From NCBI RefSeq assembly GCF_001678905.1, contig NZ_CP012117.1, positions 186,001 to 250,000 on the forward strand: 64,000 nt of DNA, written 5' to 3'. The stretch comes from Dermabacter vaginalis. GTDB lineage: Bacteria; Actinomycetota; Actinomycetes; Actinomycetales; Dermabacteraceae. Below the pieces are notes generated by a model. That model ran no database searches. It was not told the DNA's origin and saw only the letters and a list, made by a program, of their open reading frames with translations. Positions 38,147 through 56,642 of this stretch are shown here, in pieces (position 1 is the first letter of the stretch; every line of letters starts with the position of its first letter). Position numbers and translations under genes: made by a program.

Positions 38147-39670
<1,524 letters not shown>

Positions 39671-39942
39671 AGTTTACTTTTGCCCTGCACTGCCACGTTT
39701 GTGGTGGTGTGCGTGTTCTGTGCCGAGTGTGTGCAGCGCGTATGGGCTGGGTGGAACATCAATAAAAGACGTGTTGCTTTGTGCTGGTGCTGAGTACGCC
39801 CCTCGTGTTTGTGGGGTTGGAATGGTGCTGGTTTCGAGGTGGCGTGTTGTGGGCACACTATTGGGGTGTGAGACTGCATGTGCGGTCTTTCCCCCCCTGG
39901 GGCTGCTGGCTTTGTGGTTGGTGGTTTTCGGGTGTGGGGGTG

Positions 39943-39968
39943 TTGTTTGTCAACTGCATAGTGGACGC
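39943..39968 (+). promoter_or_regulatory. Spacer antitermination/processing box
   Basis: TTGTTTGTCAACTGCATAGT in the 374-bp 16S-23S spacer (39667-40040). It shares its pattern with the leader element at 38008. No tRNA gene is in the spacer, and the open frames there are not convincing. Confidence 0.5.
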
Positions 39969-40040
39969 GAGCATCTTGTAAGCAATTTTTTGTTACAGAT
40001 AGTTCAATGATTTTTGGTCTATGTGTTCATTTTCGAGTGT

Positions 40041-43103
<3,063 letters not shown>

Positions 43104-43213
43104 ACTCTTCATGGTTGTTTGTTTGTGTGTTCGCGTTCACTGTGTGGTTGACATTCCACACCCCCTTTTTTTTCCTGGCCCCGTTTGTTTGGGTTTGGGG
43201 GGGTTGGTTGGTT

Positions 43214-43333
43214 GTTTCGGTGGTCATTGCGTTGGGGAAACGCCCGGTTCCATTCCGAACCCGGAAGCTAAGCTCAACTGCGCCGATGGTACTGCACTCG
43301 GGAGGGTGTGGGAGAGTAGGACACCGCCGAACT
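43214..43333 (+). rRNA. 5S ribosomal RNA
   Basis: About 120 nt: GTTTCGGTGGTCATTGCGTT at the 5' end, CCATTCCGAACCCGGAAGCT in the middle and CCGCCGAAC at the 3' end pairing with the start. The 23S-5S spacer is 110 bp, without a tRNA. Confidence 0.96.
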
Positions 43334-43540: not shown

Positions 43541-43747
43541 TTAGTGCATCGAGGAGAGAAGCTGATCGCCCCACCTTGCAACCGACGCGAGATCTTCCGT
43601 CCCTGAGACGATAATGAGCACTCCCGCGCACGAAGACACCGCCAGCAGCGGCGAGCACGAGGAGGGTTTCACGCCAAGCCCCAGAGCTACCCAAAGCGCA
43701 GTTTCGGGAGCTTGGCGTTTGACCCGCCCTGAATAGTCATCGTCGTT
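43541..43747 (-). pseudogene. Remnant of an eighth member of the Cys-pair membrane protein family
   Basis: One frame reads NDDYSGRVKRQAPETALWVA, continues LGLGV into a damaged membrane segment, then CAGVLIIVSG and TEDLASVARWGDQLLSSMH with a TAA at 43541-43543. ALWVALGLGV matches the start of the membrane helix of the neighbours. SVARWGDQLLSSM matches their C-terminal block (AAWGDQLLSQM). The missing part of the helix (LLVLAAAGGVFV) is present in the +1 frame, so a frameshift lies near 43665, and the whole stalk and the first domain half are deleted. No start codon is in frame (TAG at 43748-43750). Confidence 0.7.
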
Positions 43748-43787
43748 CTATTTCGCTATGCACGACCTAGGTGATGAGATGAGCGCC

Positions 43788-44714
43788 TTACCCCATCTTC
43801 GAAATGAATTCGTCGCCCCAGGCGGTAACGTCTTCTGCGCTCAGTGTCCCGGTGTTCGCGCCGATGATGTAAACGAGTGCGCCGGAAGAATTCTGTTTGA
43901 AGCACGTTTGGGTGTTGTCGGAGACGGATTGGCACGTCCAGCTGCCTACGGTCTTCTTTTCCCCACTTCCGTACTTTGTCAACATTTCCTGGGTTTCCTT
44001 ATCGCTGATGATCGAAGCGGTGTAAACGAGGGTCATACCCTGGGCGACGTAGGTTCCGCCAGCGTCACCGATTCCGGTATCGCCGAACGAAGGATCGAGA
44101 GTTGTCGAGCCAACCTGTTGAGGAAGGTTCCCCGACGCTGCTTTGCCTCCACCGCCGGGCTGCGGAGCGTCTCCACCGCCTTGTCCCGGCTGGGGGTTAT
44201 CCCCGCCGCCTCCGGGCTGTGGAGCGTTTCCACCACCAAGTCCCGGCTGGGGGTTATCCTCGCCGTCCCCGGGTTGCGGGTTGTTGCCCCCTGCGCCAGG
44301 CTGAGGGATGTTCTTTCCGCCGGGCGCGGGATTCGGAGCAGGGTCCTCACCCCCGTTGCCATTCTTATTGCCCTTGTCGCCCTTGCCACCGCCGGAGCTT
44401 TTGAGGTCCTTTTCCGCGGAGCTCACTTCTGAGGCGGGAACCTCTTTTTTGTCGTTGCCGTTTAGGAGCGTGTATGCGAGGACGCCTCCACCGACCAGGA
44501 GAGCGAGCAGGAGGAGAACACCGCAGCCGATTCCAACCCACAGTCCAGTCTTGCTCTTCTTCTGTGGAGGCATACCGCCACCGGGGTATGTCGCGGGCTG
44601 GTTGTATTGCCCCTGGAGGTTGCCCTGATCGTATGCAGGCGGCTGGTTGTAGCCCTGGTTGCCGTTCCGATTTGCACTCGAAGCGGCACCTGGCTGCCAT
44701 TCGTTGTTGCTCAT
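43788..44714 (-). CDS. Array protein A: single-pass membrane protein with Cys-pair/WGD domain
   Basis: 308 residues; no known function. Layout: Asn/Gln/Pro-rich cytoplasmic tail (1-50) ending in MPPQKKSKTGLW, a membrane helix (VGIGCGVLLLLALLVGGGVLAYTLL), a charged patch, a stalk with repeated NPQPG/APQPG and GGGG units, then an outer domain of about 110 residues. That domain has GSWTCQSVSDNTQTC (two Cys nine residues apart) and ends TAWGDEFISKMG. Lys-rich just before the helix puts the N-terminus inside. The Cys pair could form a disulfide outside the cell. It has its own upstream element at 44803-44827. Last complete gene of the array. Confidence 0.85.
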   Translation of the reverse strand: MSNNEWQPGAASSANRNGNQGYNQPPAYDQGNLQGQYNQPATYPGGGMPPQKKSKTGLWVGIGCGVLLLLALLVGGGVLAYTLLNGNDKKEVPASEVSSAEKDLKSSGGGKGDKGNKNGNGGEDPAPNPAPGGKNIPQPGAGGNNPQPGDGEDNPQPGLGGGNAPQPGGGGDNPQPGQGGGDAPQPGGGGKAASGNLPQQVGSTTLDPSFGDTGIGDAGGTYVAQGMTLVYTASIISDKETQEMLTKYGSGEKKTVGSWTCQSVSDNTQTCFKQNSSGALVYIIGANTGTLSAEDVTAWGDEFISKMG

Positions 44715-44802
44715 GTATGTTCTTTCTACTGTGCTGGGTCGCGAAGGTGCGAGGTGCGGATGGGACGTGTCGCTGGCGCAAATATAGGCGCAGCTGTCGG
44801 TG

Positions 44803-44827
44803 AGTATTACACATCACAGCGAAGGAA
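44803..44827 (-). promoter_or_regulatory. Conserved 25-bp element upstream of array gene A
   Basis: AGTATTACACATCACA-G-CGAAGGAA (plus-strand reading) is identical but for one base to 50195-50219. It lies 88 bp before the ATG of gene A. Read on the minus strand it includes TGTGTAATACT, a possible -10 region. Also between A and B is a 9-bp inverted repeat AAGCCTAGG/CCTAGGCTT (44826 and 44909). Confidence 0.6.
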
Positions 44828-44962
44828 GCCTAGGGGTGGCCGCGTCGAGTTTGCGCTGGGAGAACGAGGAACCGAACGGCGAGGTCGAGTGGACTCCCGT
44901 CAGCCTTGCCTAGGCTTCGCATATAACGCGATGCGTGTTGACGTGGTGGTCGATGTTGTGCG

Positions 44963-44974
44963 GCAACCGTCGGA
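44963..44974 (+). repeat. Dispersed 12-mer, GCAACCGTCGGA
   Basis: Exact copy one base outside the stop codon of array gene B, in the 261-bp gap between B and A. Confidence 0.7.
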
Positions 44975-44975
44975 A

Positions 44976-45587
44976 CTAGTCTTTGTTTTTAGTGCCTTTC
45001 AGCATCTCGGCTACGAATGCATCGCACCACCTCGACGATTCGATCGACGCAATGCTCGTGGAGTGCACAACGATGAGCCCTATCCCTTCGACCGTTCCTA
45101 CGCACCCACTGCCAGTAGCGTCTACGCCACATTCAAGACGCCCAAGTTTGTGGCGGTCCTCGAGCGAATCGAGAAGCGCCTGACCCGAGCCGTCGTCCTC
45201 GTTTTTGACACCGACGTTGTACCTAGTTCCGTTCGGGTGTTCGTAGACTGCATCGATGTCGTACCCGTTTTGGCTTTGCCCCGGAGGTACGGAAGTCACG
45301 AGAGTTGTGGACCACACGGCTGCGGGCTCACCTGCCTGCGGCTCAACCTGGGGATGGATCGTGCCGCCGATCGATGTTGCCGGGGCCTCGGCGGCAGGAT
45401 CGCTGCTCTGAGCGTGCACCGGGGTGGCCGTACCCGCGCCCTCGTTCTTGCCTTGGGTGGCAAGAGCCCACACGAGTCCTCCGCTTGCAAGTACGAGGAC
45501 GAGGAGCAATACCGCGAGCGCTAGCGCGAGCCAGAGACTCAGGCGTGAGTGCCTGGGCGATGAGACTTGCCGATAAACGTTGTTCAT
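44976..45587 (-). CDS. Array protein B: divergent member of the Cys-pair family
   Basis: 203 residues. N-terminal tail short (1-17), then a membrane helix (LSLWLALALAVLLLVLVLASGGLVWAL), a short stalk and an outer domain. The domain keeps GRLECGVDATGSGC, with Cys eight residues apart, but Trp of the G-x-W-x-C motif is Leu. The C-terminal block is SRWCDAFVAEML, where the Gly of WGD is Cys. It has no Pro repeats. The ATG overlaps the stop of gene C by 4 bp, so it is translated with C. The third Cys sets it apart from the others. Confidence 0.8.
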   Translation of the reverse strand: MNNVYRQVSSPRHSRLSLWLALALAVLLLVLVLASGGLVWALATQGKNEGAGTATPVHAQSSDPAAEAPATSIGGTIHPQVEPQAGEPAAVWSTTLVTSVPPGQSQNGYDIDAVYEHPNGTRYNVGVKNEDDGSGQALLDSLEDRHKLGRLECGVDATGSGCVGTVEGIGLIVVHSTSIASIESSRWCDAFVAEMLKGTKNKD

Positions 45588-46351
45588 TCGATGGGCTTCT
45601 GCGATTCTTCCGCGAGTTGATCGCCGAACTGTGCAATCTCGTTGAGGTCCTTTACTCCGGAAGCCATGATAAGCACGATTGCGCCTTCGGGACCTTGCGC
45701 GTAGCAGTCGCCACCGCTGTCAGCGAAGGCATCTTCTTGGCATTTCCAGTTCCCGATTTGCGTGCCGGTCGCGTCGATGTCTTGGACCCAAATTTTGCCG
45801 TTTTCAGGATCGTTGAATACTTGGACCCAGAAAGATGCGGTGCTGTTCGGCGAGGAGTAAGCCTTTTCCGTGTCCCCGAAATTGAACGGCGGCAGGGTGG
45901 AATCGACTTTGAACTCACCTACCTGATCCGGCGGCACATAGCCGCCGCCAGCGTTCGGCCCAGGGGCGGGATCTGGACCACCCGGTTTCGGGTTCGGTCC
46001 CGGGTTCGGCTGTGGTGCCGGATCGGGCCCTGGAGCCGGTGCCGGGTTTGGCCCTGGAGCCGGTGCCGGGTTGGGATTTGGTTGGGATCCGCCGGGGTTC
46101 GGTTGAGGTTTCGGAGCCGGCTCATCCCCACCGTTATCGCTTGCCGGGGGCTTGGGCTTTGGCTGCGGAGCGGGTGCGCTTGTGCTGGTTCCTTCTTTCG
46201 GTTCCGACGCTTTCTTGTCCTTACCGTTCAAGAGCATGAAGGCGAGAATCCCGCCCGCGATGAGAAGAAGAACGAACACGATCCCCATCCCGATCGCGAC
46301 CCACACGAGGGTCTTACTTTTTTGTGGTGCCGCGCTGTTTGGGTACGTCAT
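45584..46351 (-). CDS. Array protein C: Cys-pair membrane protein with long Pro stalk
   Basis: 255 residues. Tail MTYPNSAAPQKSKTLVW, one membrane helix (GMGIVFVLLLIAGGILAFMLL), then about 80 residues of PAP/PNP repeats forming a stiff stalk, and the outer domain with IGNWKCQEDAFADSGGDC (Cys eleven apart) and AQFGDQLAEES (Phe for Trp). Followed directly by gene B (4-bp overlap), and 34 bp after the end of gene D. A one-mismatch dispersed 12-mer sits just after the helix (codons KKASEPK, 46203). Confidence 0.83.
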   Translation of the reverse strand: MTYPNSAAPQKSKTLVWVAIGMGIVFVLLLIAGGILAFMLLNGKDKKASEPKEGTSTSAPAPQPKPKPPASDNGGDEPAPKPQPNPGGSQPNPNPAPAPGPNPAPAPGPDPAPQPNPGPNPKPGGPDPAPGPNAGGGYVPPDQVGEFKVDSTLPPFNFGDTEKAYSSPNSTASFWVQVFNDPENGKIWVQDIDATGTQIGNWKCQEDAFADSGGDCYAQGPEGAIVLIMASGVKDLNEIAQFGDQLAEESQKPIE

Positions 46352-47119
46352 CGTGTTCTCCCTGTGTGATGGCTGTGGCGTGCGACTACTTCATTTGAGA
46401 AAGGAGCTGGTCGCCCCAGGCAGCCACGTTCTCCATCGGAAGGCCGCTTGCGGCCCCGGCACTGATGTACACCAGCTTGCCATTGGGCCCGGTCGCGTAA
46501 CAGCTGCCGCTGATATCGGAGGTTTGGGCGCACTGCCAATTTCCGATGGCTTTCATTTCACCGGTCGAATATTTGGTGAGCATCTCTTGCATGTCGGAGT
46601 CGGTCACGATCGACACGATATACACCGTTTGTTTGTCGGGCGACATGTACGTGGCCTCCTCTTCACCGAGACCCATCTCGGACATCGACGAGTCTGCTGT
46701 CATGTCGCCGACCTTCGGCGGGAGACTTCCCATGCCCGCGCTGCCGCCCCCGTTACCGCCGGGGTCTGGAGCTGGGTTGCCGCCGGGGTCTGGGGCGGGG
46801 ACGCCGCCGGGGTCTGGGGCCGGGACGCCGCCGGGGTCTGGGGCGGGGTTGGCACCGGGGTCCGGTGCAGGGGCCGGTTTGGGGGTGTCGCCGCCTGTGT
46901 CGCTTCCGCCGGCGTTTGGTGCAGGGGCGGGTGCGGCGGCACTCGTGGTGGTGTCATCTTTGGGTTCCGACGCTTCCTTGTCTTTACCGCTCAACAGCAC
47001 AAAGGCGAGCACGCCACCTGCGATGAGGAGCAGAATCAAGAGAGCACCGCACCCGAGTGAACTGCTCCCCATTAGTTGGACTGAGAAATCAGTTACCGAC
47101 TAGTGGGGAGTAGTTTTCT

Positions 47120-47602
47120 TTGAGAGCACGAAGTTCGCTGAGTGAGCATCAGCGCGAGCAGCTGGTTGAACTGTTTGAGCAAGGCATGGGCTCTCAAGCC
47201 GCTGCGAATGCTCTTGGTGTCTCCAAATACGCCGTCCGTAAGTTCTATCGTCGGTTTAAGCTGCATGGCAGGCTATGTCTTGTGGAGAAACCGACTAAGC
47301 AGCAGTATTCGTTCGACATCAAGAAGGAAGTTGCCGAGCGCCACCTTGCTGGTGAGACAGCGATGGATCTTGCGCGCGAATTTGGACTGTCATCAGAGCA
47401 GTTAGTCAGAGCGTGGTCGTGGAAATGGCGCAAAGGTGGCGATGAGGCACTAATGCCGAAGCCGAAGGGCAGGCCCAAAGGCTCGGTCGCGCCGAAGCCG
47501 CTCTCGGAGGAAGAGAAGCTGCGTCGCCAGATCGCACGGTTGGAAGCGGAAAACGCCTATCTAAAAAAATTGCGGGACTTGAGGAATCAGGGACGCGCCT
47601 GA
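47120..47602 (+). CDS. IS element 2 transposase OrfA (helix-turn-helix)
   Basis: 160 residues. Two HTH_28-like helix-turn-helix units (GMGSQAAANALGVSKYAVRKFY and TAMDLAREFGLSSEQLVRAW) and a coiled coil at the end (KLRRQIARLEAENAYLKKL), as in IS150-type OrfA. A seven-A run at 47563-47569 (codons CTA AAA AAA) is placed just before the end, where a -1 shift would join the frame to orfB. Confidence 0.9.
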   Translation: MRARSSLSEHQREQLVELFEQGMGSQAAANALGVSKYAVRKFYRRFKLHGRLCLVEKPTKQQYSFDIKKEVAERHLAGETAMDLAREFGLSSEQLVRAWSWKWRKGGDEALMPKPKGRPKGSVAPKPLSEEEKLRRQIARLEAENAYLKKLRDLRNQGRA

Positions 47603-47652
47603 AAGTCCAGGCGATTGTCATCCTCAAGTCACAGCATCCTCTGCAATACCTT

Positions 47653-48462
47653 TTGGATGCGGCAGATATGCCGAGATCGACGTTCTTCTACCACCAGAAA
47701 CGCCTCAGCGAGCCGGATAAGCACGCTGCGCTCAAAGACGCGATCCGGGAAAGCTTCGAGCGTAACAAGTATCGCTACGGCTACCGGCGAGTGCTACTTG
47801 ACCTGCGCAACCAGGGGTGGGTGGTCAACCACAAGCTCGTCTACAAACTCATGTGCGAGATGGGGCTTCGAGCGAAAGTCCGCCAGCGCAGGCCATATGT
47901 GTCCTACAGCGGGACGAGCAGCCACATTGCCGACAACACGCTTGACCGCAAGTTCACCCCAGATAAGCCCAATACCGTCTTTGCCAGCGACGTCACCGAG
48001 TTCAGGGTCGCAGGCCGCAAGGTCTACCTGTCACCGGTGATGGATCTGTTCGACCGTTCAATCGTTGCCCACACCGTGGCTACATCGCCGTCGACAGCGT
48101 TCACCGCCGATTCGTTAGCTAAGACGATTAACACGTGTGCGCCTGAACCTGGGTGGATGATCCACACCGATCAAGGTTTCCAGTACCAGCATTCGACCTG
48201 GCGCAACCTCATTCATGACAACGGTGGTGTTCAGTCGATGTCGCGTAAAGCCAACTGTTACGACAACGCGGTCATGGAGAATTTCTTCGGGCACTTGAAA
48301 ACCGAGATGTACCACGGAGAAGTCTTCGACACCGTCGCAAAGTTCAACCAGGCGATCGACGAGTACATCCAGTGGTACAACACCGAACGCATCCAACAAC
48401 GACTCAAGGGCCTGACCCCGATGCAATATCGAAATCAGACCCTTGAAGCCCTAACCGCCTAG
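47653..48462 (+). CDS. IS element 2 transposase OrfB (DDE integrase)
   Basis: 269 residues from the first ATG, but the frame is open and sensible from the A7 run (IAGLEESGTRLKVQAIVILK...), so the real product is an OrfAB fusion by -1 frameshift. The rve core shows FASDVTEF (D), IHTDQGFQYQH (D) and NAVMENFFGHLKTEM (E), and the QRLKGLTPMQYR tail. All catalytic residues are intact. It mobilises IS element 2. Confidence 0.93.
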   Translation: MDAADMPRSTFFYHQKRLSEPDKHAALKDAIRESFERNKYRYGYRRVLLDLRNQGWVVNHKLVYKLMCEMGLRAKVRQRRPYVSYSGTSSHIADNTLDRKFTPDKPNTVFASDVTEFRVAGRKVYLSPVMDLFDRSIVAHTVATSPSTAFTADSLAKTINTCAPEPGWMIHTDQGFQYQHSTWRNLIHDNGGVQSMSRKANCYDNAVMENFFGHLKTEMYHGEVFDTVAKFNQAIDEYIQWYNTERIQQRLKGLTPMQYRNQTLEALTA

Positions 48463-48644
48463 AATTAAACCAGTCCAACTTTCGGGGGCCAGTTCAGAGA
48501 CCGATCCACAGGCCCGTTTTGTTTTTCTTCTCGGGAGGCATCCCGTTCGCATACCCCATCGAGGACGCGTCATTGGGTATTTGATACTGGGGTGGCTGCT
48601 GGTATTGAGGTGCCTGGCCCGTGGGATCGGGCGCTTGCTGCCAA

Positions 48645-49361
48645 TCATTGTTGCTCATTGAGTGCTCCTATAAATTGATCGCCCCATGCGGCGAGAGTTT
48701 TGAGGTCACTGGTTATGCTCGCGATTGCGACATAGCCGTGAGTGTCGTCTTGTGTCACGCATCCGGAGAGCGATCCGTTTTCTTCGGTAACGCATGTCCA
48801 CCTGCCGATCTTCTGGGCGCCGGGGAGGTCCTTCGTCACGCTCGCGGCGGTGCGGTCGGCGTTCTTACCAGCCCCAACTTCGACCTGGGTACCGTCGGAT
48901 TTCTCGTAAAGCGCGTGAATGTCAAAGTTTTGCGGCGGCTGGTGCGGTTCGTCCGACTGGACGAGGACAAAGTCTGCGAACTGTTGGGGCTCCCCACCTC
49001 GCGCTTCGACGGGCGTGGGTTCGCCGTCGGGGCCGGGTTCTGGTTGCGGTGCGGGCGCAGGTGTGGGGTCCGTTTCGTTGCCGCCGTCGTTCGGGCCGGG
49101 CGCTGGTGTCGAACTTTCGCCACCGCTGGTCTCGCTGGGATTCGGGGCGGGAGCCTCAGCGGAGGTCGTTGCCGTCTCGCTCTCCTGTGACTTCTTTGAG
49201 TCGTCGCCACCCATGAGGGTGAGGGCGAGGGCTATGCCGCCCACAATGAGGGCCAGCAGCACGAGGCAGCCGCAGCCGAGGCCGATCCACAGGCCGGTTT
49301 TGCTCTTTTGGGTCGGTGGCATGCTTTGCGGAAGGCCGCTGTAAGGTGAGGGTTGCGCCAT
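48645..49361 (-). CDS. Array protein E: Cys-pair/WGD membrane protein
   Basis: 238 residues. Short tail MAQPSPYSGLPQSMPPTQ-KSKTGLW, helix IGLGCGCLVLLALIVGGIALAL with two Cys, an acidic Pro-rich stalk (about 65 residues), and the outer domain with IGRWTCVTEENGSLSGC (Cys ten apart) and AAWGDQFIGAL. Start overlaps the F stop by one base (TGATG). Stop lies inside the start of D. It belongs to the F-E-D-C-B unit. Confidence 0.85.
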   Translation of the reverse strand: MAQPSPYSGLPQSMPPTQKSKTGLWIGLGCGCLVLLALIVGGIALALTLMGGDDSKKSQESETATTSAEAPAPNPSETSGGESSTPAPGPNDGGNETDPTPAPAPQPEPGPDGEPTPVEARGGEPQQFADFVLVQSDEPHQPPQNFDIHALYEKSDGTQVEVGAGKNADRTAASVTKDLPGAQKIGRWTCVTEENGSLSGCVTQDDTHGYVAIASITSDLKTLAAWGDQFIGALNEQQ

Positions 49362-50113
49362 CAGCTCGCGCCTCCCGCGGAGATGAACTGCTCGCCAAAG
49401 TTCGCGAGAGTTTGTGCGTCTGCATCACCGATGACCTTGATGACGTTCGTGCCATTGGTGGATTTCACGCAGATGCTCTCGTTGCCCGACGCACCCCCAT
49501 AGAAGGGGCCGCACGTCCAGCCGCTGATCTCCTGGGCGCTTCCGCTCAGGGTCAGCATATCTATCTCGTCTTCGATCGGTGCGAGGGGGTTCTCAGCACC
49601 GGAGACGATGATTTGGCCGGTCGAGGAAGTATAGGTGGCGCCGTAGTCGGCGCCGACGACGTTGTCTGTTGCGACTTCACCCAGGGTGTATTCTCCAACC
49701 TGCTGAGGCAGATTGGAGTTGCCGCCATCAGGGGCCGGCGCAGGGTTGTCGCCGCCACCGTTCGGGGCAGGAGCGGGATTGGGTGCTGGGTTGTCGCCGC
49801 CGCCGTTGGGAGCGGGGTCGGGAGCTGGGTTGTCGCCGCCGCCGTTGTTCTGGCCGGGTGCCGGGGCCGCGGCCGATGTGGTTGTGCCGCCGTCGCCCGA
49901 ATCCTTCGGGTCGTCCCCGCCCATGAGCATCACTGCGAGCGCGATGACGCCGATCAGGAGCGCCAGGAGTACGAGGCAGCCGCAGCCGAGGCCGACGTAC
50001 AGGCCAGTTTTGCTCTTTTTCTCCGGAGGCATCGCACCCGGGTACCCCATAGGCGGTTGCCCTTGCGGCGCTCCTTGACCGGCTGGAGCCTGGTTCCACT
50101 GATTGCTCGACAT
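49361..50113 (-). CDS. Array protein F: Cys-pair membrane protein, first gene of the F-E-D-C-B unit
   Basis: 250 residues. Tail MSSNQWNQAPAGQGAPQGQP ending in MPPEKKSKTGLY, helix VGLGCGCLVLLALLIGVIALAV, a stalk of NPAP/GGGDNPAP repeats and the domain with ISGWTCGPFYGGASGNESIC (Cys thirteen apart, the longest loop) and ANFGEQFISAG, where Trp-Gly-Asp is Phe-Gly-Glu. ATG 50113 is preferred over 50209, since MSSNQW matches the MSNN starts of A and D. The conserved element lies 81 bp upstream. Confidence 0.83.
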   Translation of the reverse strand: MSSNQWNQAPAGQGAPQGQPPMGYPGAMPPEKKSKTGLYVGLGCGCLVLLALLIGVIALAVMLMGGDDPKDSGDGGTTTSAAAPAPGQNNGGGDNPAPDPAPNGGGDNPAPNPAPAPNGGGDNPAPAPDGGNSNLPQQVGEYTLGEVATDNVVGADYGATYTSSTGQIIVSGAENPLAPIEDEIDMLTLSGSAQEISGWTCGPFYGGASGNESICVKSTNGTNVIKVIGDADAQTLANFGEQFISAGGAS

Positions 50114-50194
50114 ATGCGTAATCCTCATCGGATGGGGCGGTCTGCGCACGCGCACAAGGGATAGCGCAGCACACTGTAATGCAGGCCGTGCGTC

Positions 50195-50219
50195 AGTATT
50201 ACACATCACACCGAAGGAA
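50195..50219 (-). promoter_or_regulatory. Conserved 25-bp element upstream of array gene F
   Basis: AGTATTACACATCACA-C-CGAAGGAA, one mismatch to 44803-44827 and at almost the same distance (81 bp) from the gene start. Probably a shared promoter or regulator site for the two transcription units of the array. Confidence 0.6.
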
Positions 50220-50274
50220 TACTAGGGTTGCCCTAAATCTCTGCCGCGGTGTCGATGGGCGAGGTCCCCCTCGG

Positions 50275-50835
50275 CTATTTGAGTTGCTCCATGAACTCAT
50301 CGCCCCAGGCTGCAATGGTGCTGAGGTCGGCGTCTGAATCAAGCGGAACGAGGAGAACTCTTCCGCGTTCGTCGTCGGCCATGCACACGTTCATCTCGTA
50401 TTGCGTTCCGCACGACCAACGCCCAATGGTCTGTGGGTTCGTGAGGTCGGCGACGTCCTCTTCGAATGTGCGACCCGGATCGTTCTCGATTCCAATCTCG
50501 TATCCGTCGCCGCTCTCATCTTCGTAGCGAGCGCGCACGACGTAGTCGAACTTTGGATCTTCGCCGCGGGCCTCGGACATGACGAGGCGTGTATTGCCCA
50601 CCGTCTCGGGCTCACCCGATTTGGGGGTGACAGCCTCGGAGTGTGAAGTGCCCGAGGAGCCCGACGTTTGCTCGCCCGTATTGTTCAGCAGCACATAGGC
50701 GAGGATCCCGGCGCCCGCGAGTGCCGCGAGCACAGCGAACATGCCACCGCAGCCAAGTAGCACCCAAAGAAGAGTGTTGTTCTTGCGTGCCGGGGATGCA
50801 GAGGGGGGATTGAGGTGACCCATTGGTGGTTGCAT
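50275..50835 (-). CDS. Array protein G: short Cys-pair/WGD membrane protein
   Basis: 186 residues, the shortest intact copy. Tail MQPPMGHLNPPSASPARKNN, helix LLWVLLGCGGMFAVLAALAGAGILAYVLL, a short Ser/Thr stalk in place of the Pro repeats, and the domain with IGRWSCGTQYEMNVC (Cys eight apart) and AAWGDEFMEQLK. It is separated from F by a gap of 161 bp that holds the shared element. First gene of the array by position, at the edge facing the DUF981 gene. Confidence 0.83.
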   Translation of the reverse strand: MQPPMGHLNPPSASPARKNNTLLWVLLGCGGMFAVLAALAGAGILAYVLLNNTGEQTSGSSGTSHSEAVTPKSGEPETVGNTRLVMSEARGEDPKFDYVVRARYEDESGDGYEIGIENDPGRTFEEDVADLTNPQTIGRWSCGTQYEMNVCMADDERGRVLLVPLDSDADLSTIAAWGDEFMEQLK

Positions 50836-51030: not shown

Positions 51031-51819
51031 ATGGGAACATTTTTCACCGGTGAGAGCACGCCGGGGCTCATCGACTGGTCGTCGATGCCTACTTACAACA
51101 CGATCATGGCGGTCGCCGCTGGTGCGACCCTATTCGCACTCGTACTTTTCGTACGGGGACTCGCGAAGCGCAGTGCACTCTCGCGCACTGAGGCATTCGC
51201 GGAAGGAACCGAGGAACGCCGCGAGCTCGCTGCTTTTCTCGACGGTTATGCCGTTGCCTTTGGGGTATTCGGTCTCATTCTTTTTGCGACCGGCCTCCAC
51301 ATGATCCTGACGTGGCCGCTCGCAGAGGGCGGCTTCCCGTTCGACAACATCGTCTTTGGTGAAACATGCGTGCCGCTCGGTGCCCTCGCTCTCGGACTCT
51401 CAATCTATTTGTGGCGCCGCCGCGATAGCGTGCTCGAGGCTCCGAACCCGCTCGTGCATCTTGCGCGCGTCGCGAGTCCTGTCGGGTTCTTTACGATCCT
51501 CCTGGGCCTTGCACTGATCGGCATCGCGCTTGCGGGTCTCGTTTATCAGCTGTTCGCAGCGCCCCCGCAAGAACCGATTTCGGGTGCGTTTTCGAACATG
51601 CCCATGCTCGAAAACGGTGCACTCGCGATTCTTTTCTGTCTTGTCGCCTTCGGTGCGATCTGCTTCCCCTTCATCACTAAGCAGATTCGTGACACAGGAA
51701 CTCTCACGCCCCTCGCAACGGCCGCTGGTTGGTGTCTTGCGATTGCTGGCATCGCGTGGGGCCTTTTTGGCGCGATGAACTTCTACACCCACATTGGGCT
51801 CATCGTGAACACCATGTGA
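51031..51819 (+). CDS. DUF981-type membrane protein
   Basis: 262 residues, about seven membrane helices (NTIMAVAAGATLFALVLFV, YAVAFGVFGLILFATGLHMIL, VPLGALALGLSIYLW, GFFTILLGLALIGIALAGL and others). The region NIVFGETCVPLGALALGLS carries the N-x(2)-FGE pattern that marks DUF981 proteins. Function unknown; located in the cytoplasmic membrane. ATG 51031 follows AAGGAGG. Divergent from array gene G by 195 bp, convergent with the DUF1846 gene. Confidence 0.8.
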   Translation: MGTFFTGESTPGLIDWSSMPTYNTIMAVAAGATLFALVLFVRGLAKRSALSRTEAFAEGTEERRELAAFLDGYAVAFGVFGLILFATGLHMILTWPLAEGGFPFDNIVFGETCVPLGALALGLSIYLWRRRDSVLEAPNPLVHLARVASPVGFFTILLGLALIGIALAGLVYQLFAAPPQEPISGAFSNMPMLENGALAILFCLVAFGAICFPFITKQIRDTGTLTPLATAAGWCLAIAGIAWGLFGAMNFYTHIGLIVNTM

Positions 51820-51885: not shown

Positions 51886-53373
51886 CTATTTGTGGAAAAG
51901 GCTCTTTTTGCCGAAGACCGGCTCGCTCGTGACGAGCACGCCAAGCGCGCGGAACACCGATTCATCCACCGAGCCGAGGATCGTCGTGGTGTGCACGTCG
52001 CAGCCGCGCAGATTTTTAATCTGTGCGAGTGCCGCGGCGGCATTTTCGTCGCTGCCTGCCGAGACCGAAAGGGCGATGAGCACCTCGTCGGTGTGCAGGC
52101 GCGGGTTGCGTGACCCAAGGTGATCGACCTTGAGGGTCTGGATTGGCTTGATCGATTCGGGGGACAGCAACAGCGCATCCTCGGGAATTCCCGCGAGATG
52201 CTTGAGCGCGTTGAGGAGCATGGCAGCGGAAGCACCGAGCAGATTTGAGGTCTTTCCTGTAATCAGGGTGCCGTCGGAAAGTTCAAGACACGAAGCGGGC
52301 GCACCGGTTTTTTCGGCAAGCGCGAGCGCGGGTTGCACGGTGGGGCGGATCGTTTCCTCCACGCCGAGTTTGGCCATCACGAGCTTGATGCGCTGCGATT
52401 CGTTTGCGGGTAGTTCGAGCTTCTTTTCGGAGACCCGAGCCTTGTAGTAGCGGCGCACGACCTCTTGCGTGGCAGCCTCGCGGCACGCGTCATCGTCGGT
52501 GATCGCGTAGCCCGCCATATTGACGCCCATGTCGGTAGGGGAGGAGTAGGGGCATTCGCCAAGGATGCGCTCAAGGAGGATCCTGAGCAGCGGAAAAGCC
52601 TCAATATCGCGGTTGTAGTTCACGGCCTTTTCGCCGTAGGTTTCGAGGTGGAACGGGTCAATGAGGTTCACGTCGTCGAGATCCGCCGTTGCCGCCTCAT
52701 AGGCGAGGTTCACGGGGTGCTCGAGCGGAAGATTCCAAATCGGGAACGTCTCAAACTTTGCGTAGCTTGAATCGATCCCGCGCTTGTGATCGTGGTAGAT
52801 CTGCGACAGGCACGTCGCGAGCTTGCCTGACCCCGGCCCCGGCGCCGTCACGATAATGAGGTCGCGCTCGGTTTTCGCCCACTCGTTTTGACCAAGCCCC
52901 TCCTCGGACACGACGAGGGTCGGGTCCGGGTAGCCTTTGATCGTGCGGTGGCGCACGACCGTCAGACCGAGCCGCTCCATGCGAGTTTTAAACTGCGACG
53001 CCGCCTCGTTACGATCGTCCATTTGCGTGAGCACGATCGTGTTGACGAGGAAACCGCGCTCGCGGAACACATCCACGAGGCGCAGAACGTCCTCCTCATA
53101 CGTGATGCCGAGGTCGGCTCGCATCTTGTCGTGTTCAATATCGTGGGCGTTGATGGCGATAAGGATCTCGAGCTCATCCTTCAGCTCGTAGAGCATCGCG
53201 ATCTTGTTATCGGGTGTGAACCCGGGAAGAACCCTCGAAGCGTGCAGGTCGTCGAAAAGCTTGCCGCCCATCTCGAGATACAGCTTCCCGCCGATCTGAG
53301 CGCGCCTTTCGGCGATGTGCTTCGACTGCAGCTCGATGTACTTCTTCGGATCAAAACCTTGCGTGCGTGCCAC
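51886..53373 (-). CDS. DUF1846 (UPF0371) family protein
   Basis: 495 residues, full length. Family blocks include [38 protein letters not shown] (the latter near-invariant), [20 protein letters not shown] (a P-loop-like GPGSGK) and [18 protein letters not shown]. Structures of the family show a nucleotide-binding-like fold, but the reaction is not established. GTG 53373 is placed after CAGGAGG. Confidence 0.92.
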
Positions 53374-53540: not shown

Positions 53541-54371
53541 TCAGCCCTTCACGGAACCGCTCATCATGCCCGAAATGAAGTACTTCGATAGCAGGATGTA
53601 CACGACGAGGGTGGGAGCCGAGGCGAGAAGTGCGCCAGCCATCGACACCCCGTAATTGGTCAGCAACGCGCCGTTGGCGAGGTTGTTGAGGGCGAGGGTT
53701 ACCGGGCCGTTCATCGGCGTCGCGAAGAACACCGCGAAAAGGAAGTCGTTCCACGCATTCGTGAATTGCCAGATCATGACCACCACGAAACCGGGAATCG
53801 AGATGGGCAGCGCGACGGACCAGAACGTGCGGAGCATCCCCGCGCCATCAACCTTGGCGGCTTCGATGAGCGATTCGGGAACCGTCTCGAAGTAGTTGCG
53901 GAAGATAAGCGTGCAGATCGGGATACCGAACACGACGTGCACGAGAATAAGCGAGGGAACGCCCGAGTCGATGGGTAGAGCAAGCACGAGCGAGAGCAGG
54001 GGGATCATCACGGCCTGGTAGGGCAAGAACATGCCAAACAGGAGGAAGGTGAAGACCAGATCCGCCCCGGGGAAACGCCAGCGAGATAGCACGAAGCCGT
54101 TCATGCATCCGAGAGCCGAGGAGATGATCGTCGAGGGGATGACCATCGCAAACGAACGCCCCATCGCAGGCGAAAGCGTTTCCCAGGCTTCCGCCCAGTT
54201 CTCAAGCGTCCACTCGCTCGGCAGCGCCCATGCGCGGGCGGCTGAGGCATCGCCGCTCGTTTTGAAGCTCGTGACGATGAGGACGTAGACGGGAATCAGG
54301 ACAAGGACGACGCCGATGAGGAGAAGGGCAAGGCGGACGTACCGCCACGGGGAAACCGAGGAGGTGTTCAC
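53541..54371 (-). CDS. Carbohydrate ABC importer permease (MalG-type)
   Basis: 276 residues, six helices. The coupling-helix EAA motif is ESLIEAAKVDGAGMLRTFWSVALP. Ends in SGMMSGSVKG as MalG-type permeases do. GTG start overlaps the stop of the partner permease (GTGA). Pairs with the gene at 54368 and the binding protein at 55350. No ATPase is encoded here; such importers in actinobacteria share an MsiK-type ATPase. Confidence 0.93.
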   Translation of the reverse strand: MNTSSVSPWRYVRLALLLIGVVLVLIPVYVLIVTSFKTSGDASAARAWALPSEWTLENWAEAWETLSPAMGRSFAMVIPSTIISSALGCMNGFVLSRWRFPGADLVFTFLLFGMFLPYQAVMIPLLSLVLALPIDSGVPSLILVHVVFGIPICTLIFRNYFETVPESLIEAAKVDGAGMLRTFWSVALPISIPGFVVVMIWQFTNAWNDFLFAVFFATPMNGPVTLALNNLANGALLTNYGVSMAGALLASAPTLVVYILLSKYFISGMMSGSVKG

Positions 54372-55312
54372 GACTGACGCTCCCTGTGTTGCTGGATGAG
54401 ATAAGGAACGATGAGGACGCCCACGATGATGAGAAGAATCGTGCCGACGGCAGCCGCGTTCGCGTAGTCGAAGCTCGACTTAAACACGAACATGTCCACG
54501 GCGGGGATCTTGGTTTGGTAGTTCGAGGGTTTCGAGATCGACATGATGAGGTCGAAGCTCTTGAGGCTCATGTGCGCGATAATTACGAGAGCACTCATGA
54601 TGATGGGGGTAAGCTGCGGGAAAATCACGTGGCGGTAGATCTGCCACTCGCTCGCGCCATCCATGCGTCCCGCTTCGCGAAGCTCATCGGGAACGCCGCG
54701 GAAGCCAGCGAGAAAGAGCGCCATGACATAGCCGCTCAGCTGCCAAATCGCCGGAAGGGCGATCGCGGCGATGCCCCACGTAATGTTGTTCCACCAAGGG
54801 TTTTGGAGAAAGCCGAGCCCCACCATCTGAAAGAGGCGGTTAAGACCGCTAGCACTCTCGCCCTGGTTGGAGTTGAGGAGCCAGCGCCACACCACGCCCG
54901 AGGCCACGAAGGACACGGCCATGGGGAAAAGGTAGATGGTTTGGAACACTCGACCACCTTTGATGGGGCGGTCGAGAAGCCACGCCCACACGAATCCGGT
55001 GATCATCGCGCCGCCCAAGAACACCGCCGTGAAAATCACGAGGTTCATGAGTGAGTGGCGAAAATCGGGGCTCGAGAGAAGAGCGATGTAGTTATCGAGG
55101 CCCACGAACTTACTGGGTTGCACGCCGTTTGTTTGCGCTGCCGTGTGGTTGTCCGTGAGAGAGGTCCATACGTTCTGCGCCATAAGCACGTAGACGAAGA
55201 TCCCCACGAGAATGAGCGAAGGCGAGATGAGCAGCAGTGGCGCCGCATACTTTTTCATGCCTGGTCCTAGGGTGAAGGTGGCATCGGTGGGGGCCGGGCG
55301 AGCGTCGGACAT
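54368..55312 (-). CDS. Carbohydrate ABC importer permease (MalF-type)
   Basis: 314 residues, six helices, EAA motif DELREAGRMDGASEWQIYRHVIFPQL, first helix LLLISPSLILVGIFVYVLMAQ. Translated with the MalG-type partner. The first codons MSDARPAP contain a one-mismatch dispersed 12-mer at 55298. Confidence 0.93.
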   Translation of the reverse strand: MSDARPAPTDATFTLGPGMKKYAAPLLLISPSLILVGIFVYVLMAQNVWTSLTDNHTAAQTNGVQPSKFVGLDNYIALLSSPDFRHSLMNLVIFTAVFLGGAMITGFVWAWLLDRPIKGGRVFQTIYLFPMAVSFVASGVVWRWLLNSNQGESASGLNRLFQMVGLGFLQNPWWNNITWGIAAIALPAIWQLSGYVMALFLAGFRGVPDELREAGRMDGASEWQIYRHVIFPQLTPIIMSALVIIAHMSLKSFDLIMSISKPSNYQTKIPAVDMFVFKSSFDYANAAAVGTILLIIVGVLIVPYLIQQHRERQS

Positions 55313-55349
55313 GAGATCCCCGGCCCCGAAACCGATGTGAAAGCGGAGC

Positions 55350-56642
55350 TTACTTCTTCATATTCGATTCGGCAGCGGACACGAGCTCGGCCTGGAACGC
55401 CTTGGCGTCGGTCGCGCCGGAGGTGAACTTGCTCGTTGCGTCGGAAATGGCGTTGAGCCACGCGACCGAAGTTGCCGCACCGTGGGCGATCGAGGCGCAG
55501 ATCTTGTCGTGTGCGAAGGACTCGAGCGCAGACTGCTGATACGCCGGGAACTTCGAGACATCAGCGTCGGTGCGCGCGGGGATCGAGCCCTTGGCGAGGT
55601 TGAAGGCTTCCTGGCCCTCAACGGACGAGATGGTCTTGAGCCACGCCTTTGCATTGTCGGGGTGCGGTGCGCCCACGGGCAGGGTGAAGGAGTCCGCGAG
55701 GAAGCCGAAGATCTTGTCGCCAGAGGCGGCCGAGGGCACCTCGAAGTAGACATAGTCCTTCATGTCTTCCTTGCCGGCTTCCTGGAATGCCGCAACGGCC
55801 CAGTCGCCCATGACGTTGTAGGCGGCCTTCTCGTCGATCACAAGGGCGGTCGCTTCGGGCCAATCGAGTGAATCTCGATCGGAGTTGGTGTAGCCCACGA
55901 GCTTCTCGAACGCCGCGATCGCAGTGGCGACCTCCGCACCTGCCCAGTCAGTCGAGCCGTCGAACAGACCGTTATAGGCGTCCGTGCCGAGGTGGGACAT
56001 GAGCACTGCTTCAAGCAGGTTGACCTGCGTCCACGGTGCCGCGAGAGAAAGCGCGGTGACACCCGCAGCCTTTGCCTTTTCGAGGTCAGCGAGCCAGGCA
56101 TCGAACGTCTCGGGAACAGCCTTCGGGTCGATACCGGCCTTTTCGAGCACGGCTGTCGAGGCCCACACGACATTCGAACGGTGAATGTTGGACGGCACCG
56201 AGTAGATCTTGCCATCCACCGTCAGGAGCTCGACCAAGCTGTCAGGGAAGGCCTTGCGAAGGTCGAATTCGTCGTAGAGTCCAGAGACGTCCTCGATCTG
56301 GCCAGCATTGATGTAATCGGTCAGCTCGCCACCGGCGTGCGCCTGGAAAGTGTCGGGCGGATTCTTGGTCTGCAGGCGCGACTGGAGCATGTCTTTTGCG
56401 GCGCTGCCCGCGCCACCCGCGACGGAGCCATTGACGAACTTAATCTTGGGGTTTTGTTCGTTGAATACCTTGACGAGAGCATCGAGGCCAGCCTTCTCCG
56501 AGCCCTGGGCCCACCACGTGAACACCTCGACGGAGTCGTCCCCGCCAGCGGAACCGCCACCGGAGGAGTTGGAACATGCCGCGAGCGCGCCAAGCGCAAT
56601 ACCAGCGGACGTGAGAGTGAGGAAAGTCCTCCGTGCGATCAT
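55350..56642 (-). CDS. Carbohydrate-binding lipoprotein of the first ABC importer
   Basis: 430 residues. Signal peptide with RR and lipobox LAAC (MIARRTFL...ALGALAAC), a Gly/Ser linker, then an SBP_bac_1 domain (VFTWWAQGSEKAGLDALVKVF, DVSGLYDEFDLRKAFPDSL, FGFLADSFTLPVGAPHPDNA). It holds the sugar outside the cell for the two permeases 38 bp downstream. The ligand cannot be told. Divergent from ptsI by 219 bp. Confidence 0.92.
   Translation of the reverse strand: MIARRTFLTLTSAGIALGALAACSNSSGGGSAGGDDSVEVFTWWAQGSEKAGLDALVKVFNEQNPKIKFVNGSVAGGAGSAAKDMLQSRLQTKNPPDTFQAHAGGELTDYINAGQIEDVSGLYDEFDLRKAFPDSLVELLTVDGKIYSVPSNIHRSNVVWASTAVLEKAGIDPKAVPETFDAWLADLEKAKAAGVTALSLAAPWTQVNLLEAVLMSHLGTDAYNGLFDGSTDWAGAEVATAIAAFEKLVGYTNSDRDSLDWPEATALVIDEKAAYNVMGDWAVAAFQEAGKEDMKDYVYFEVPSAASGDKIFGFLADSFTLPVGAPHPDNAKAWLKTISSVEGQEAFNLAKGSIPARTDADVSKFPAYQQSALESFAHDKICASIAHGAATSVAWLNAISDATSKFTSGATDAKAFQAELVSAAESNMKK

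Follow-up and report, generated by a model that had tools for sequence, protein, structure and literature searches.

What could a skin bacterium gain from a row of seven related membrane proteins, each carrying its own version of the same outer domain? The question is raised by Dermabacter vaginalis, whose genome (2.39 Mb, single contig) contains, within a stretch of 64,000 nucleotides (contig NZ_CP012117.1, positions 186,001 to 250,000, hereafter the window), an array of seven paralogous genes (g1 to g7) and one remnant, on the minus strand at 43541–50835. The initial annotation of this DNA had described seven genes and a remnant there, with one decayed copy and one disrupted copy, and we agree with it; the disrupted copy is g4, which is split by an insertion. 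According to a profile search the array is the only such locus of its genome, and its genes have a single orientation. Each protein consists, in this order, of a cytosolic tail, one transmembrane (TM) helix, a stalk and an outer domain, which is acidic and about 112 residues long. We conclude that the outer domains form a coherent family which is absent from the libraries searched, and we propose, tentatively and by analogy, that the array could be a polyimmunity locus whose binding heads face outwards.

A coherent family of outer domains

A profile built from six of the seven outer-domain groups was run against the seventh group and 1000 shuffles, each group being held out in turn. All the held-out members were recovered, in 7 of 7 groups, with expectation values (E) from 1e-22 to 1.9e-8, while the best shuffle reached 0.016. 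The seven outer domains are homologous, far beyond chance, as the initial annotation had supposed. The model made from all seven groups also matches h0, a protein of D. hominis (E 0.013; 0.55 for the best shuffle), five lipoproteins that occur in single copy in other genomes (E 2.4e-5 to 0.0083; 3.9 for the best shuffle), and the proteins L026 (E 1.7e-7) and L051 (E 0.037); the scores are weaker, yet each is above all of its own shuffles.

Only one tyrosine and two cysteines are invariant in the 22 outer domains that were aligned. There are exactly two cysteines in 24 of 25 outer domains (g6 has three), and the net charge is negative in all 25 that were counted, from -6 to -24. The domain ends with WGD in g1, g3, g4, g7 and the remnant, with WCD in g6 and with FGE in g2, as first described, and with FGD in g5, for which the earlier description had implied WGD.

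No relative of the outer domain was found in Pfam, NCBIfam, PHROGs or the PDB sequences, which agrees with its having been left unrecognised at first; the Pfam search covered the whole array proteins and 17 members of the domain family. The outer domain gave scattered single matches only, the best being to BIg21 (0.011, below its cut-off), TIGR03066 (0.057) and PHROGs (0.039), and a profile search of all PDB chain sequences to E 10 returned only a titin chain. No viral relative was found for g5 in phage records or for g7 in viral contigs. Among the open-access papers listed on Dermabacter surface proteins and genomes, no title or abstract opening mentions the array. The family is coherent and uncatalogued in these libraries and has a confident predicted structure, so that it can be named and tested now.

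Several candidate relationships were set aside. The matches of the whole proteins to library families (OAD_gamma, 0.0016; GltJ, 2e-5; TonB, 5e-4; FliL, 4e-4) lie mostly on the anchor and the proline-rich stalk, and where PADLOC links g3 and g5 to PD-T4-6 (E 4e-6 and 4e-5), the match is confined to these parts. Membership of PknH_C (PF14032) is rejected, with an hhalign probability of 0.6% and no such match in the Pfam results of the 17 members. An extra weak match of g7 at position 1865577 of its own genome (E 0.06) falls in an open reading frame that resembles, by eye, another exported protein.

Predicted fold

The initial annotation had proposed to predict the fold, and AlphaFold2 gives confident models of the outer domains of g7 (model 1, pLDDT 92.1, pTM 0.86) and g1 (model 2, pLDDT 91.6, pTM 0.85). 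Both contain seven strands and two helices, a short one that follows strand three and a long one at the C terminus, on which the W/F-G/C-D/E motif lies. The two cysteines of the g7 model are on neighbouring strands of one hairpin and almost opposite each other, a strand register that suits a disulfide.

Foldseek returned nothing at E ≤0.001 (PDB for model 1, viral models for model 2). The VIA-align results are taken from the 50 matches listed for each model; no solved structure reaches Z 8, the maximum being 7.8 for model 1 and 7.9 for model 2. Both models match TM1622 and the C-terminal domain of RseB/MucB, which is the top or tied-top match of each (RseB, Z 7.8 and 7.9, with 82 and 88 residues aligned and 9–11% identity; MucB, 7.1 with model 2). 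RseB is a two-domain periplasmic protein of Gram-negative bacteria. DcrB is matched at Z 7.2 and 6.3, and the immunity proteins Tsi3 and Smlt3025 at 7.8 and 5.7 with model 1, and at 5.9 and 5.8 with model 2. The PknH sensor (4esq, Z 7.6) and TiME (7cu8, Z 7.4) are matched by model 1; with model 2, TiME scores 5.3 and PknH is not among the 50 matches listed. PsbP scores up to 7.0 with model 1 and 4.6 with model 2. Mog1 (6.6) and LpqN (5.1) are matched by model 1, neither being among the 50 matches listed for model 2, where profilins are also found. In all, Tsi3, DIP2269, the PknH sensor, TiME, DcrB and PsbP score highest with model 1, and are lower or unlisted with model 2. It may be that matches under Z 8 reflect only a common arrangement.

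Anchor, stalk and topology

The tails comprise 17–59 residues in the six copies that have this part in place; the longer ones are rich in Pro, Gln and Asn, and no Pfam domain was found in the cytosolic part. In these six copies, the 15 residues before the TM helix have a net charge of +2 or +3, and the 15 residues after it a net charge of -3 to +1. Some homologs have a lipoprotein signal, with a lipobox recognised by eye (h0 in D. hominis, L022; L027, L028, L029, L048, L049 and L050 elsewhere), while L026 and L051 look TM-anchored. Since forms with a lipoprotein signal exist, the outer domain probably faces the outside of the membrane, and the charges on either side of the helix point the same way. 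This is consistent with the single-pass, probably outward-facing local array that was described initially.

The stalks measure from 29 (g1) to 118 residues (g7) with our own TM boundaries, on which these lengths depend; the range first given was from under 30 to about 80. The longer stalks are made mostly of Pro, Gly, Asn, Asp, Gln and Glu, and, as already noticed, their repeats differ from copy to copy. The length of the g7 protein is 308, 268 and 296 residues in the three species that have it. The anchor motifs that had been ascribed to all copies apply to some of them: MPPxKKSKTGLW is exact in g7, one residue off in g2, g3 and the 5' piece of g4, and more degenerate in g1, g5 and g6. The second motif, GxGCG, is preserved in g2, g3 and g7; the insertion breaks it up in g4, LLGCG stands in its place in g1 and AIGMG in g5, and g6 lacks it.

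This type of anchor is not special to the array, as similar tail-plus-TM anchors carry other domains in the sister genus, which is probably Brachybacterium: among nine such proteins from 17 loci that were scanned with Pfam, three have Ltp repeats and one DUF4352. We note that the three proteins with Ltp repeats (PF07553; L004, which has three of them, L008 and L016) are possible chromosomal phage-exclusion proteins. A 722-residue open reading frame at 24887–27055 of the window, polytopic by eye, has long Pro/Gln-rich tails at both ends that look like enlarged versions of the array tails.

Distribution and evolution

The domain is present in 7 of the 47 genomes of the family (E ≤0.01), namely three of the four Dermabacter and four of the sister genus. 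At the level of the order, 7 of 396 genomes match at E 0.001; one of these is a further member of the sister genus, and three belong to other families. In the class set only the genome of D. vaginalis matches among 394; these two sets were drawn evenly from larger groups, and the loose first look limits their sensitivity.

The array occupies the same place in D. indicis and D. hominis, with other copy numbers (one genome was compared per species). In D. indicis we find the types g1, g2, g6 and g7, two types of g5, and what by eye looks like a remnant of g3; several of its frames are broken, which could be due to assembly errors. D. hominis has the g1, g2, g5 and g7 types and a g6 remnant, also recognised by eye, and on the DUF1846 side it has an additional lipoprotein gene, h0. 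The fourth Dermabacter genome yielded no outer domain, and its DUF1846 gene lies 200 bases from the end of a contig; the array is either absent or, less likely, unassembled. The birth-and-death evolution suggested initially is supported by these differences in copy number and order, the losses, the duplication of the g5 type in D. indicis, and the broken copies.

In trees, each of the five types shared between species forms a cluster of its own, and the sequences do not group by species, which shows that these five paralog types are older than the species. The g1 outer domain is 90% and 85% identical to its counterparts in the two other species. The ratio of nonsynonymous to synonymous substitution rates (dN/dS) between species is about 0.14–0.31 for the whole genes g1, g2, g5, g6 and g7 (with a dS near saturation in g6), compared to 0.03–0.05 for the neighbouring DUF1846 gene: the array genes are under purifying selection, about 3–10 times looser than that on DUF1846.

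Anchors and outer domains do not tell the same history. The identity between copies is 67% for the anchor versus 28% for the outer domain in g2–g3, 62 versus 31% in g4–g5, and 45 versus 40% in g4–g7. Of five tree contrasts, three give a rejection: the g2+g3+g7 clade seen with the anchors is rejected by the outer-domain data (p 0.002), and g1+g3 (p 0.001) and g4+g7 (p 0.01) are rejected by the anchor data. For g2+g3 the outer tree gives no rejection (p 0.21). We chose the contrasts once the trees were known, and the data include short anchors and long branches. In the outer tree with 17 rows, g4 groups weakly with g5 (66/74), and with 25 rows it groups with g7 (93/90). The simplest reading of this disagreement is that anchors and heads were re-sorted. 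The silent-site differences (pS) of anchor versus outer domain are 0.48 versus 0.67 in g2–g3, 0.51 versus 0.71 in g4–g5, and 0.54 versus 0.63 in g1–g2; since the anchors have only 39–51 codons and g1–g2 comes close to the adjacent pairs g2–g3 and g4–g5, we set this test aside in favor of the tree tests.

As for the origin of the array, a singleton lipoprotein gene is found 1–3 kb from a gene with PEP-utilising enzyme domains, which we take to be of the ptsI type, in three of the eight loci examined elsewhere (L105, L107 and L111). A gene of this type is 6 kb from g1 in D. vaginalis and directly beyond DUF1846 in D. indicis. The proximity of ptsI-type genes to both the singleton and the array suggests that the array may have grown from such a singleton.

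Organisation of the locus

The features are collected in Table 1. The genes g2–g3, g3–g4 and g5–g6 overlap, the gap between g4 and g5 is 34 bases, and those between g1 and g2 and between g6 and g7 are 161 and 261 bases. This overlap or close spacing suggests that g2 to g6 may be made together. The last 28 codons of the remnant (43544–43627) match the domain profile (E 0.003).

Table 1. Array genes, associated elements and flanking genes (window positions)
Feature	Earlier letter	Position	Strand	Outer domain	Description
g1	G	50275–50835	-	50275–50613	186 aa; short tail, TM, 29-residue stalk
g2	F	49361–50113	-	49361–49705	250 aa; end motif FGE
g3	E	48645–49361	-	48645–48986	238 aa; start overlaps g2 stop by one base
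g4	D	46386–48658	-	46386–46724	split by insertion; 5' piece 48497–48658, 3' piece 46386–47056
g5	C	45584–46351	-	45584–45925	255 aa; Pro-rich stalk of 103 residues; end motif FGD
g6	B	44976–45587	-	44976–45320	203 aa; most divergent anchor; end motif WCD; overlaps g5 by 4 bases
g7	A	43788–44714	-	43788–44123	308 aa; 118-residue stalk with NPQPG repeats
Remnant (eighth copy)		about 43541–43747	-		decayed; anchor-like stretch (by eye) fused to last part of outer domain
Upstream element CTTCGNTGTGATGTGTAATAC		50196–50216	-		before g2
Upstream element CTTCGNTGTGATGTGTAATAC		44804–44824	-		before g7
IS3-type element		47057–48496	+		in g4; 1440 bp; frames 47120–47602 and 47653–48462; 3-bp target repeat CTC
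rRNA operon (16S, 23S, 5S)		38147–43332	+		downstream neighbour of array, convergent
DUF1846 gene		51886–53373	-		upstream neighbour of array; same place in two other species

The two larger gaps (g1–g2 and g6–g7) contain the element CTTCGNTGTGATGTGTAATAC. With up to 3 mismatches, it occurs twice per genome in all three array-bearing Dermabacter, before g2 and before g7, and not at all in the fourth genome. The pair could be two promoters of common descent, the promoter role being a guess; a simple consensus promoter scan did not flag these sites.

The element in g4 has the rve and HTH domains of a transposase. Two further copies that are 100% identical (1440 and 1439 bases) are present in the same genome, a partial copy (93%) in D. 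hominis, and matches of 82–93% in three Corynebacterium plasmids; it has likely been shared recently among skin bacteria. No recombinase gene was seen beside the array, which has only this insertion element, within g4.

The array is flanked by the ribosomal RNA (rRNA) operon on one side and by DUF1846 on the other. The 5S gene adjoins the array in D. indicis too, and the contig of D. hominis stops short of it. A gene for a DUF981 membrane protein lies between g1 and DUF1846 on the opposite strand (51031–51819), and there is no room for it at the corresponding place in D. indicis or D. hominis. Between DUF1846 and ptsI, a transporter of the ATP-binding cassette type (solute-binding SBP_bac_1, 53541–56642 of the window) is also present in D. 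hominis and missing at this place in D. indicis, where ptsI directly follows DUF1846.

Possible functions of the array

Since only Tyr, Cys and Cys are invariant in the 22 aligned outer domains, no catalytic set appears to be conserved, which points to a domain that is not an enzyme. A repertoire of binding domains fits this absence, and it fits several heads that are probably made together, each of them kept by selection and some of them missing in some species. We tentatively favor, by analogy, the idea that the array is an outward-facing homogeneous polyimmunity locus of binding heads that would work like the TipC arrays of streptococci. In the mechanism that we have in mind, each protein would use its stalk, which is Pro-rich in most copies, to present a small acidic, Cys-paired alpha/beta binding domain outside the membrane; with several paralogs probably produced at once, each with a conserved outer domain of its own, the cell surface would offer a repertoire of different binding heads, and these heads would neutralise hostile proteins that reach the envelope. 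The more specific proposal, that this new family is an actinobacterial polyimmunity array directed against the envelope-acting type VII effectors of rivals, with heads re-sorted onto anchors, is rather doubtful, and toxins as partners are the least secure part of the scheme.

The possible link to type VII secretion comes from EccD, which was found in every one of the three Dermabacter genomes with the array but not in the array-less fourth. The EccD of D. vaginalis passes the Pfam cut-off and not that of NCBIfam, and EccC was identified in the D. indicis copy of the locus. The ESX locus of D. vaginalis (114001–133000 of the genome, L113) consists of four tandem units, each with a near-identical gene for an ESAT-6-like protein of 102 residues (NF035935, one of them scanned), a second small Esx-like gene, a block of 300 bp that is 100% identical in four of four units, and then a large, diverged substrate gene; the D. 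indicis locus (L114) has two units. The WXG100 matches that led to this locus are all below the family cut-off. We do not state as fact that the four large proteins are polymorphic toxins, since no toxin domain was recognised in them and end-to-end alignments link three of them.

Several observations weigh against immunity as the function. That end-to-end alignment of three of the four large substrates is unlike polymorphic toxins. Five genomes of the sister genus that have the domain gave no EccD match (three of them are less than 90% complete), three others that have EccD gave no domain match, and the co-occurrence in the four Dermabacter genomes may be a single event. No toxin gene is present within or beside the array, from the rRNA operon to DUF1846, and no telC-type gene was seen in this interval (beyond it, mostly lists of open reading frames were read). 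The profile search of PDB chains to E 10 did not match TipC2 (6DHX). No fold match reaches Z 8, and the immunity proteins rank no higher than RseB, PknH and others; the contrasts that bear on re-sorting were chosen after the trees, with short anchors, and two are undecided. Last, a housekeeping role would also be compatible with purifying selection and with one-to-one orthologs.

It is because the EccD link fails in the sister genus, and no toxin domain and no adjoining toxin gene were found, that we hold immunity as no better than tentative, and that an envelope sensor or chaperone-like accessory protein, possible if somewhat unlikely, has to be considered beside it. The outer domain would then bind a lipid, a wall fragment or a peptide, as do RseB, LpqN and the PknH sensor, and the copies would be tuned to different ligands. 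The RseB C-terminal domain and DcrB match both models, the PknH sensor, TiME and PsbP match model 1, the singletons are lipoproteins, encoded close to the same ptsI-type gene at three of the eight loci, and the array genes are under purifying selection; on the other hand, the cytosolic part is only a short tail devoid of Pfam domains, there is no profile link to PknH_C, the Z values below 8 may reflect a common arrangement, and gene-by-gene loss and absence from one congener speak against an essential function. The PknH sensor is anchored behind one TM helix. PknH_C and TiME share with the array a fold like model 1 and a W-x-C before the last strands, while PknH_C has two further cysteines (invariant in 16 of 16 aligned members), a second pair that the array lacks, and the array has no kinase.

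The other hypotheses appear improbable. Phage exclusion at the surface, in the manner of the Ltp lipoproteins that block DNA injection, is suggested by the sister-genus anchors that carry Ltp repeats (3 of 9 proteins scanned, E down to 6.6e-74). Ltp is described as an anchor, a spacer and a head, with negative charges that matter (PMC3952083), a plan which is that of the array, whose 25 outer domains are all net negative. However, Ltp repeats are another domain, none (PF07553) was found in the array or in any of the four Dermabacter genomes, the searches for viral relatives of g5 and g7 gave none, and the PD-T4-6 matches are confined to anchor and stalk. Acidic surfaces are also common in exported actinobacterial proteins in general. 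About equally improbable, in our view, are adhesins, or surface proteins that vary antigenically under pressure from the host or as phage receptors: probable surface display, tandem copies, one insertion, one remnant, and stalks whose length changes between species would agree with them, but dN/dS is 0.14–0.31, the overlapping genes are probably expressed together, no known adhesin domain was found in Pfam, the NCBIfam matches are low-scoring only, and stalk change can be ordinary slippage of Pro-rich repeats. Antigenic switching fits poorly because g2 to g6 are apparently made together. We found no evidence for the adhesin or phage-receptor family evoked in the initial annotation, and the rapid, immune-driven diversification that it suggested is not supported, given purifying selection and types that predate the species. 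Less probable still is a mostly dispensable expansion, in which a singleton lipoprotein near ptsI was duplicated and the extra copies are now decaying; the split gene and the remnant here, the broken frames in D. indicis, the copies missing in D. hominis and the lack of any in the fourth genome would support it, but selection on the intact copies is purifying, and the species have retained the ortholog groups.

If polyimmunity is the right explanation, this skin actinobacterium would have a stock of external shields, which would point to undiscovered effectors of its rivals. The system is compact, with one locus, an array-less congener and an ESX locus in the array-bearing genomes, which makes a clean comparison possible.

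Comparison with known polyimmunity systems

Polyimmunity loci are described as consisting of distant paralogs in one locus and the same direction, without toxins, whose number differs between relatives (PMC3482391). Like the homogeneous loci of the SUKH or Imm type, the array has tandem distant paralogs in one direction, short gaps and no toxin in between, and its copy number likewise differs between close relatives (three species). The described cases belong to other domain families, and the array would resemble them in function only by analogy.

The closest parallel is TipC. Two papers describe it as an outward-facing alpha/beta immunity protein with an N-terminal TM helix or lipoprotein signal, which occurs as rows of as many as 15 paralogs, with recombination at their conserved end blocks, and which neutralises a wall-acting type VII toxin (PMC6193138, PMC9484751). 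The array has the N-terminal anchor, the predicted outward domain with seven strands, the strings of paralogs, the copy-number change and, likewise, probable recombination at conserved parts. Compared by description, TipC is a crescent fold with seven strands and three helices, while our models have seven strands and two helices; TipC is not among the 50 matches listed for either model, a listing that excludes nothing. The array differs from TipC by its long Pro-rich stalk, its Cys pair and its actinobacterial host.

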